From: a virus
Length of the DNA: 24,188 nucleotides
Strand: one strand, 5' to 3'
Virus record (IMG/VR): IMGVR_UViG_3300005534_000046
Coordinates: 1-24,188 of that record
Positions 18,909-21,971 of this stretch are shown in pieces. The position numbers and the translations under genes were made by a program. A model generated the notes under the pieces. The model saw only the letters and a list, made by a program, of their open reading frames with translations. It was not told the DNA's origin and made no database searches. Each line of letters begins with the position of its first letter. Position 1 is the first letter of the stretch.

Positions 18909-20297
18909 TCAGTCCACAATCGGATTGCCCGTGCAATCCACCGGATCGGACTCGTAGTTCTGCGCCGGGTAGCCGGGCGACGCGCTGCACGGAGTGATCT
19001 GGATCACGCAGGATGGCTCGCGCATGTGGAAGATCAATTCCACCAGTTCCGTGTACTGGGGCCGCACCGCCTGCTTGAAGTCGGCGATGAATTGCCCCTT
19101 GTTCCGCCGCTTGTTCTCGATGGGCTGCCCGTTGATGTCCGCGCCCAGGTTGTCCATCACGAACTGCCAGCGCCCGCCGAAATTCCGGCTGCTGAAAGGC
19201 ATCTCGGGATTGACCGGCGTGGCGTCCGCCACCAGCACCTGCAAACCTTTCCGGTGCCAGATGTACGACCAGCAATACTGCGCCAGTTGGAAGCTCGGGT
19301 TGACCAGGTCTTTCAACCCCGCCGCACCACCCGCGCCGCTGGACGGCACGTTCACATACGGCAGCACGACTTGGAAGCGTGTCAGCGCCGGGTTCGCCGG
19401 GCTGGCACCCACCAGGTTGAACCGGATTTGGAACGGGTCCACCCGCACGACATAGTTGCCGATGCTCCCGCTGAATCCGTATTTCCAGTACTTCTGGCTG
19501 GCGTCCCATTGCTCGAACCGCCAGTTGCCCGCGATGCTCGGCACCCCGCCGTAACCCTGCTGCCCGCCCAGGTGGTCGAGTTCCCAGCAGGTTTCCAGGT
19601 CCGTCACCAGTTCGATCATCGGCGGCATGTCCTTGAACGGCTGCTTGCCAAAGTAACCGACCTGCATCAGCGGTTGCACCTGCCGTTGCAGCATCTGCGG
19701 CGTCAGCTTGCTCACCGGCGCGCCGCTCGCGTCGATGTAGATTTCCTCGTCGCCCACCACGATCCAGCTATAGCTGAATGTGGACAGCGTGCTGTTCGCC
19801 AGAATCTGCGTCCCGGCGTATTGCGCCACCCGCTTGCGCAGGTAGTTGGACCAGATCGCGCTGGTCGCGGGTTTCAGGATGTCCGAGATGATCTGCCGGA
19901 ACTGCTCCCGCGCGTGCGTGATGTGCATCTCCTGGTCGAAGCACAGCAGCGGGGTCGCCCACGACTGTTCCTCAAGGAAATACACCAGCCGCGTCGCGCC
20001 CCAGGTGATGTAATGCTCCACCTTGTCGCAGGGCGTGCCCAGACAGTTGCCCGCCACCGTCGCCGTCCACGTCTTGGTCACGTTCGGCCAGACATGGTTG
20101 AAGCGGTCCAGCGTGTGCTGCACACCCGCGTAGGCTTCGAAAGTCCCCGTATCCACATGCAGAATCCAGCCGTCCTCGGGCCGGATGTCCTCCAAGATCA
20201 GCTTGTCATAGACCGGTTCCTGGTCCACGAGAAACTGCGTGTACGAACACCCGGAAAGCTTGGAGTTGCTCTGCGGGCATGGTGCCGTGTTTGCCAT
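18909..20297 (-). CDS. Putative major capsid protein
   Basis: A 462-residue protein without signal peptide. It follows the scaffold-like gene directly, the usual scaffold-to-capsid order, and is preceded by the window's longest structured non-coding stretch, as expected for a highly expressed gene. Mixed alpha/beta content and lengths near 300-500 suit a capsid of HK97 type. Recognisable parts include REQFRQIISDILKPATSAIW, AGTQILANSTLSTFSYSW, a dimer- or loop-like GGQQGYGGVPSIAGNW, and a C-terminal FHMREPSCVIQIT. Ten cysteines are spread along it. No ribosome-binding site precedes the ATG, which sits inside an 11-bp inverted repeat. I rely on order and size, so another head protein remains possible. 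Confidence 0.65.
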   Translation of the reverse strand: MANTAPCPQSNSKLSGCSYTQFLVDQEPVYDKLILEDIRPEDGWILHVDTGTFEAYAGVQHTLDRFNHVWPNVTKTWTATVAGNCLGTPCDKVEHYITWGATRLVYFLEEQSWATPLLCFDQEMHITHAREQFRQIISDILKPATSAIWSNYLRKRVAQYAGTQILANSTLSTFSYSWIVVGDEEIYIDASGAPVSKLTPQMLQRQVQPLMQVGYFGKQPFKDMPPMIELVTDLETCWELDHLGGQQGYGGVPSIAGNWRFEQWDASQKYWKYGFSGSIGNYVVRVDPFQIRFNLVGASPANPALTRFQVVLPYVNVPSSGAGGAAGLKDLVNPSFQLAQYCWSYIWHRKGLQVLVADATPVNPEMPFSSRNFGGRWQFVMDNLGADINGQPIENKRRNKGQFIADFKQAVRPQYTELVELIFHMREPSCVIQITPCSASPGYPAQNYESDPVDCTGNPIVD

Positions 20298-20374
20298 AAA
20301 AATCGTTGCTGCTGCTGCGTTAAACCGTCTGCTCCGTATGCGCCAGTGCGCGCGGAGACTTCTCGATTTTTATG
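20295..20374 (-). promoter_or_regulatory. Hairpin with the capsid start codon in its 3' arm
   Basis: CATAAAAATCG (20295-20305) and CGATTTTTATG (20364-20374) are perfect 11-bp inverted repeats, 58 bases apart. In the minus-strand RNA the 3' arm ends in the AUG of the capsid gene. Inside the loop, GCGC (20340-20343) pairs with GCGC (20348-20351) around CAGT, extended by CTCCG (20332-20336) with CGGAG (20353-20357). The layout could hide the start codon until the structure opens. Confidence 0.65.
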
Positions 20375-20663
20375 AGTGGATGATTCCTCGCGGGCCTTGC
20401 GGTCCGCCTGCCCGGCATGAACGGGCATCCTTGGCGCTCGTCCAACACGCCCGGTAGGGACGATAAAGTTATCCGACTCTCGCGGTCGGGCTGCCGATGC
20501 CCGAGTCTTGCTGGCCGAACCAGCGGCTACTGCACCACTCCACTATCCGCCCCTTTTTGTCAAGGGAATGAAATGTGGCACAAGGGTCACACTGGAAAAC
20601 CGCCATTAGTTACGTTTCTCACGTACCAGCCTTCCCGACCTCATTGCGCCACATCTGAAAGTC
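20298..20663 (-). ncRNA. Structured 366-bp intergenic region, candidate leader RNA
   Basis: No convincing protein frame lies between the scaffold-like stop and the capsid start. The minus-strand RNA can form many hairpins: 20390-20407 (stem closed by a GCAA GNRA tetraloop), 20409-20427 (6 bp), 20486-20504 (6 bp), 20510-20524 (5 bp), and 20611-20625 (5 bp). GACTC (20475-20479) can pair with GAGTC (20503-20507), competing with the 20486-20504 stem. A TTGACA (minus strand, 20563-20558) is present but no good -10 follows it. No tRNA cloverleaf or known riboswitch was recognised. Confidence 0.55.
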
Positions 20664-21971
20664 TCAGCGCGCCCGTTTCTGCAAGTCGGCGAACACCTGG
20701 TCCATCGCGTTCAGCGCCGGTGTCCCCGGCTTCCCGTTGGCATCGCCGCGTCCCGGTTCGCTGGCCTCGTATTCCTTCAATTTCGCCCGCAGTTCCTTCA
20801 CCGTCCCGCGTTCCTTGTTCAGCAGATACGCCACATGGTCAAACCACCGCATCTTGTTGTACAGCGCGGCGTGCAGCTTCGCCGTGTCCTGTGGACTGCG
20901 CGTCACCGGCTTCCCCTCCGCGTCCGTTTCCGGCGCGCCATACGCGATGTCCGCCCACTTCTGGCCGTTCTCCAAAAACTCGCGACTTTTCTGGTCGCCC
21001 TCGATGGCCTTGCTCCAGGAAAACTTTTCCTCGCCGCTCTTGATCTCCTGCTTCCACAACGCCGCGTTCTCGGCCTTGCTGCGCTTGGCCTGCTCCTGCC
21101 TCTGCGTCTCCCGCGCGGTCCCGTTCTTCCGGTATTCGTCCAATGCCTGCACCCGCGCTCCGTTCAACTCATTACAACGCTCCCGGTGATACATCACCAC
21201 CGCCGCCTTGTTGCCCCACCGTTCCGCCGCAAAATCACCCGCCGCGTCGTCGTCGCTGATGGACATGAGCGCGTCAAAATCCTCCTTCGTGCCCTGCCGC
21301 ACTTCCCCGCTGGCCGGGTCCGTCATTTTCAGGCTGGCCACCTTGTTGCGCCCGGTCTGATACGCGTTCACGAATGGCGCTTCGTATTTGTCCTTGTACT
21401 CCTGGCTCCGCTCGTAATTGTTGAACCGCTGGTCTTCTTCCAGTTCCGCCAGCCGCTTCTTCGTGTTCGCCAGTTCCTCCTGCGCCGCCTTCACTTCCGC
21501 GCTCGGCTCGCTGGACTTGGTTTCCAGTTCCTTGATCCGCGCCTGCGCCTTCGTCAATTCCGCCTTCGTGGTGTCCAGCGTCTGCCTTAGCGTGGATGCC
21601 TTCACCTTCGCCGGTTGTTCACCCGCCTGTCTCTGCGCTTCCTCGCTGGCCAGTCGCGCCTCATTTTCTTCCGCCGTTTCGCCCACCGGCTCCGCGTTGG
21701 TGTCCTGCGGTTTGGTGCCGTCCTTGGGCTTGGGCACATGCTTGTTCGGGTCGTTTGTGCCCAGTTCCACCGGCGGTCCCTTGTCCGTGTTTTCCAGGGA
21801 CGCAATCATCGCCATCGCATCGGCCATGCTGTCCGCCGGCTTGGACACCGGCTGGAAACGTCCCGCCGGATCGCGGGTCGGCTGCGGCGCTGGTGCGGCG
21901 GGCTTGTCCGCCATAGCTCCGGCAGGAGCGGCGGCGGATGCTGGGGGTGTGGCTACGGCAGGTTCGGGCAT
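20664..21971 (-). CDS. Scaffold-like coiled-coil protein
   Basis: A 435-residue protein, Ala/Pro-rich at first (residues 1-50), then disordered and acidic to about 110. A long coiled coil follows (ASTLRQTLDTTKAELTKAQA, ELETKSSEPSAEVKAAQEEL, KKRLAELEEDQRFNN), then a charged helical region and a basic end (LQKRAR). Directly upstream of the putative capsid gene, this composition is that of phage scaffolding proteins, which shape the prohead and then leave. The start at 21971 is four bases after the upstream TAA. No protease motif is seen. Good contextual support; no sequence family recognised. Confidence 0.7.
   Translation of the reverse strand: MPEPAVATPPASAAAPAGAMADKPAAPAPQPTRDPAGRFQPVSKPADSMADAMAMIASLENTDKGPPVELGTNDPNKHVPKPKDGTKPQDTNAEPVGETAEENEARLASEEAQRQAGEQPAKVKASTLRQTLDTTKAELTKAQARIKELETKSSEPSAEVKAAQEELANTKKRLAELEEDQRFNNYERSQEYKDKYEAPFVNAYQTGRNKVASLKMTDPASGEVRQGTKEDFDALMSISDDDAAGDFAAERWGNKAAVVMYHRERCNELNGARVQALDEYRKNGTARETQRQEQAKRSKAENAALWKQEIKSGEEKFSWSKAIEGDQKSREFLENGQKWADIAYGAPETDAEGKPVTRSPQDTAKLHAALYNKMRWFDHVAYLLNKERGTVKELRAKLKEYEASEPGRGDANGKPGTPALNAMDQVFADLQKRAR

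Follow-up and report, generated by a model that had tools for sequence, protein, structure and literature searches.

A conserved RNA fold beside the start of a phage capsid gene and its likely role as a leader at the 5' end of capsid mRNA

The gap between the scaffold-like and capsid genes

What occupies the stretch between the scaffold-like and capsid genes of a viral record of 24,188 bases, which was analyzed at its full length (hereafter designated the window)? The capsid open reading frame (ORF) starts at position 20297 on the minus strand and the scaffold-like ORF ends at 20664 on the same strand, leaving a gap of exactly 366 bp (20298–20663). A first inspection made from the letters only (the sequence-only reading) had described this gap as devoid of a credible ORF and had placed in it, at 20390–20625, a candidate structured non-coding RNA encoded by the minus strand. 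The ORFs that reach into the gap (20198–20428 on the minus strand, and 20239–20457 and 20417–21043 on the plus strand) all run into the flanking genes, and no conserved reading frame is common to the window and the related loci L019 and L098. The absence of credible coding content was thus borne out, in the window as well as in these homologues.

Folding of the gap against shuffled sequences gave z = −1.56 on the minus strand, where 5 of 100 shuffles were equally good; for the plus strand, z was −1.29. Since this single-sequence signal is marginal, the sequence by itself is no proof of an RNA, and relatives are required. Searches with Rfam release 15 returned no family at or above the gathering threshold in the window or in 20 related loci, the best sub-threshold match within the gap having E = 1.7, and ARAGORN detected no tRNA or tmRNA gene; these results agree with the initial impression that no tRNA or riboswitch is recognizable here.

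The downstream gene (18909–20297, minus strand), to which the putative leader described below would belong, was characterized through structure prediction. An AlphaFold model of its product, derived from 54 relatives (pLDDT, 74; pTM, 0.71), matched in Foldseek the capsids of phages N4, Moo19, and DEV with E-values down to 3.4e-9, while PHROGs and Pfam contained no match to the protein. The matches to the three capsids identify the product as the major capsid protein with a predicted N4-type fold. The upstream gene (20664–21971, minus strand) has a homologue 5' of the capsid gene in 14 related loci and is named scaffold-like from gene order only. Relatives of the capsid were found on about 80 contigs and on one genome-bin contig, and there was no match in the phage collection searched. 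Among Verrucomicrobiota genomes, the capsid gene occurs in one bin only, on a single 7.4-kb contig, and is absent from 387 others of the phylum, so that the phylum is at most a candidate host.

Hairpins and their conservation among relatives

On the minus strand, the gap contains a row of hairpins, designated Ha to Hf, which were compared with their counterparts in a helix table aligned by hand, with extra relatives added for the helix P1 described below. For the window, L098, L019, and L018, this table comprises 42 pairs and 227 cells, of which 7 are broken, and 18 of the pairs are doubly changed. Hairpin Ha (20510–20524; GCUGG/CCAGC) has three of its five pairs doubly changed and none broken among the window, L098, and L019. 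Hairpin Hb (20487–20503; CGGGC/GCCCG) also has a hairpin at its place in L098 and L019 but was left out of the count because its length differs in both. In six sequences, double changes were seen at four of the five pairs of Hc (20465–20480; AGAGU/ACUUU, loop CGGAUA), at five of the six pairs of Hd (20438–20463; UCGUCC/GGACGA), and at three of the four counted pairs of He (20410–20426; GCCCG/CGGGC). The loops are conserved among the relatives as CGnAUA in Hc and GCGUGUU in Hd, and the latter is retained in L050, where the helix of Hd has been rebuilt. The GNRA tetraloop noticed from the sequence is present in Hf (20390–20407) as GCAA at 20397–20400 of the minus strand, but in L098 and L019 the corresponding hairpin carries other loops.

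The central part, Hc-Hd-He, was evaluated statistically in two alignments. With three sequences aligned by MAFFT without fitting to structure, 100% of the cells were paired with five double changes, a result reached by 3 of 500 shuffles. With six members, in an alignment fitted to a covariance model and hence leaning towards structure, 97.8% of the cells were paired and 12 of the 15 pairs carried double changes (4.5 expected), whereas none of 500 shuffles was as good; with the partners slid, at most 2 double changes were obtained. These compensatory changes support the several-stemmed minus-strand RNA proposed in the sequence-only reading, which had itself named covariation in relatives as its check. 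Moreover, most non-seed matches of the covariance model R1 (20410–20480), which was built on the three-sequence alignment and searched over 561 kb, were located directly 5' of capsid starts (L021, L050, L047, L022/L023, and L005/L025), and 10 of the 11 matches of the refined model R2 (523 kb) lay upstream of capsid genes. When viral contigs were scanned with a permissive DNA pattern for Hd, the matches listed were mostly chance occurrences, and no conclusion is based on them.

The capsid start region and the probable working of the leader

The row of hairpins is followed by a domain closed by the helix P1, whose 5' strand (UCAUAAAAAUCG; 20364–20375, minus strand) pairs with a 3' strand (CGAUUUUUAUGG; 20294–20305) containing the capsid AUG (20297–20295), with a shuffle p of 0.01 in the window. 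No Shine-Dalgarno sequence precedes the capsid start of the window. Within P1 lies the P2/P3 hairpin (20331–20359; GUCUCCG CGCGC ACUG GCGCA U ACGGAGC), which was also entered in the hand table; two of the five P3 pairs are doubly changed among four close relatives, and P2, with its pairs either invariant or broken, is uninformative either way. Because divergent members could not be aligned with MAFFT over the P1 domain, P1 was tested by alignment-free means. Counterparts of unrelated sequence were found at capsid starts, for example AGGUUCUAAAAAC/GUUUUUAGAACCU in L068, AAUCUUCGUUAGUU/AACUGACGGAGAUU in L059, and ACCAAAAGGU/ACUUUUUGGU in L025. The best stem in the start region, compared with shuffles, had a median p of 0.12 at capsid starts versus 0.47 at other genes (MWU p = 2e-5), and the leaders paired better with their own than with foreign strands, giving strongly skewed ranks (KS p = 1e-9). 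In many relatives, P1 ends several bases short of the AUG. Because about 36% of the leaders have fewer than nine closing pairs in their MFE structure, and shuffled leaders reach nine in 36% of cases, P1 rests on an excess over the whole set rather than on every leader. These computations show that the conserved fold lies beside the capsid start and that in the window P1 extends over the AUG.

With the capsid AUG lying in this final helix, the element is assigned to the capsid mRNA, and the non-coding RNA candidate placed at 20390–20625 has to be corrected in kind and in extent: rather than a free-standing RNA, it is most likely part of a capsid mRNA 5' leader, with its key helix over the AUG, and the functional element reaches the start codon at 20294. 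We favor, with a probability of about 0.62, the reading that the region from 20294 to about 20560 (minus strand) serves the major capsid mRNA as its 5' untranslated leader, in which P1 most likely restrains the start.

At the distal end of this putative leader, the window carries an intact TTGACA (20558–20563, minus strand), a candidate −35 box for a promoter of the leader. The accompanying −10 box is poor, and a strict promoter scan found neither a promoter nor a good −10 in the window itself. In nearly all relatives, however, a sigma70-like TTGACA-type −35 box with a −10-like hexamer is located usually 100–255 nt before the capsid ATG. In 61 non-redundant leaders, which are mutually related so that the tests are not fully independent, TTGAC with a −10-like hexamer was present in 57 (93%) versus 10% of the remaining ORF starts of these loci, and TTGAC occurred at −300 to −80 of the capsid ATG in 97% versus 26% of other genes. 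A Shine-Dalgarno sequence was found in 3% of the leaders versus 18% of other genes, and the mean MFE z of the leaders was −2.07 versus −0.42 for other genes (p = 2e-11). The MFE of the window's own leader is not exceptional. Leader length ranges from about 105 to 255 nt across the relatives. L042, L043, L046, and L048 have short leaders, with 105–125 nt from the −10 box to the ATG (about 108 nt for the short form in L046) and the closing helix kept (GGCUUCAAA/UUUGAAGC), representing a natural minimal form.

The DNA upstream of the leader shows features of its own. The −35 box is directly preceded by a long inverted repeat with imperfections (20571–20655, minus strand; GAUGUGGCGCAAUGAGGUC ... 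GACCCUUGUGCCACAUU), which is the dominant feature of the gap's predicted structure and had no match among the related loci. In some relatives, genes are situated between scaffold and capsid: a RelA/SpoT-domain gene (E = 2.6e-19) is inserted there on the contig of a Pedosphaera bin (L098:894-1913, minus strand), and small Cys/His-rich ORFs lie there in L002 (4240-4635, minus strand), L064 (2180-2794), L075 (2199-2813), L079 (214-564), L057 (2084-2767), and L024 (567-1310). The latter resemble HNH endonucleases by eye, have no Pfam name, and in several cases end near the leader promoter. The scaffold-capsid gap, measuring from about 330 to 3,200 bp, looks like an insertion hot spot. In L073 and L053, a conserved folded stretch (CUCAGGUGAAA...CUGAGCGGACCGAAAGUCC) lies 5' of the leader promoter, at about 200–400 nt ahead of the capsid gene; it is small-ribozyme-like by eye and has no Rfam match.

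The leader would be transcribed from its own promoter, as the family suggests, and/or by read-through from the scaffold gene. The RNA would then fold into the row of hairpins Ha to Hf followed by the P1 domain enclosing P2/P3, and the closing helix P1, in a start region lacking a Shine-Dalgarno sequence, would keep the capsid start site closed or half-open. Presumably, how strongly or when the capsid gene is translated depends on the folded leader for as long as P1 stays unopened; candidates for opening it are a protein of the phage or of its host, perhaps the capsid protein, the docking of a ribosome on the leader, and temperature. Judged from sequence comparison, the leader probably controls the amount and timing of the capsid protein, and we infer that P1 gates capsid translation.

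Other readings of the same data were also considered. The hairpins might merely shield an abundant capsid mRNA from nucleases, without regulation. In the closest relatives, the identity of the leader is 44–66% versus 79–82% for the capsid gene, and the base pairs are kept; the leader thus drifts much faster than the gene that it precedes, with its fold maintained against the drift. Such rapid drift with preserved pairing, which also counts in favor of the gating leader proposed above, would suit a protective leader, as would the high abundance of the product and the variable leader length. However, the conserved loops of Hc (CGnAUA) and Hd (GCGUGUU) and the helix that recurs at the start region exceed the needs of protection and make this account unlikely.

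A translational riboswitch, with two exclusive folds in which an upstream arm takes the 5' strand of P1 and frees the start on a signal, is quite unlikely. Strong candidate arms are seen in L068 (GGAACC...GGUUCU...AGAACC-U-AUG), L070, L076, and L092, whereas in the 29 leaders in which P1 is clear, such an arm is at chance level (median p, 0.43 against shuffles and 0.48 against swaps), and the window itself, with p = 0.97, has none. As for the mutually exclusive pairings proposed from the sequence around 20475–20507, both are possible in the window, but only the half corresponding to Hc (AGAGU/ACUUU, 20465–20480) is conserved and the alternative is not. A general anti-sequestor arm against P1, which appeared convincing by eye in several leaders, was rejected as being no better than chance over the 29.

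A separate functional RNA, cut from the stretch or ending within it like the packaging RNA of phage phi29, would accord with a compact, conserved multi-hairpin element that is located among structural genes and has its own promoter-like −35 and −10 sequences in relatives, but it is highly improbable in view of the last helix taking in the capsid AUG and of the lack of a terminator in searches within and after the leader. Least credible of all is an action of the repeats as DNA (operator, promoter, or recombination site), to which the adjoining promoter-like sequence might point, given that G-U pairs are used in P1 (L021, L022, and L016), Hc, and Hd and that compensatory changes in numerous short hairpins are typical of RNA.

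Returning to the capsid mRNA leader, a cis-acting phage leader is a known kind of element, and the RNA family appears to be new; no description of such a capsid leader was found in the literature searched, the coverage of which was incomplete. A further-reaching proposal, that this is a new RNA family limited to a group of uncultured phages and replacing the Shine-Dalgarno sequence in the selection of the capsid start site, is put forward as doubtful; if it is true, the folded leader itself would position or gate the ribosome and couple the output of capsid protein to a signal from assembly. Few phage genes are usually translated as strongly as the capsid gene. The one described here nevertheless has no Shine-Dalgarno sequence and stands behind a conserved fold over its start, offering a testable case of RNA control of virion assembly in a phage group unrepresented in the phage collection searched, and extending the catalogue of phage leaders by a structured RNA family.

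Comparison with known systems

Like the phage-associated cis-regulatory motifs of Rfam, the leader is a candidate for a structured RNA within the 5' UTR of a phage gene; it differs from them in that no Rfam release 15 family reaches threshold in it. Autogenous translational operators are known in the coat protein hairpins of RNA phages and in the leaders of ribosomal protein mRNAs. The capsid leader shares with them a structured 5' region on the gene of an abundant assembly protein; unlike them, it is a larger, multi-hairpin leader in a DNA phage, with no binding protein known for it.

By analogy, the nearest described mechanism is that of the start-sequestering hairpins of the T4 genes e, soc, 49, and I-TevI, which cover the Shine-Dalgarno sequence and/or the AUG (PMC3014915). 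For I-TevI, the 5' part of the sequestering structure has a late promoter close to it (PMC3014915). No T4-type late promoter was found inside or after the 5' arm of P1; the conserved promoter-like site is located upstream of the whole leader and hence 5' of both arms, so that both would always be transcribed and promoter choice could not remove the 5' arm. The capsid leader also departs from the T4 hairpins in lacking a Shine-Dalgarno sequence and in bearing several further conserved hairpins. The likeness is that a helix spans the start region of each of these phage genes; in the window it takes in the start codon, as in T4-type sequestration, and it is expected to lower 30S binding.
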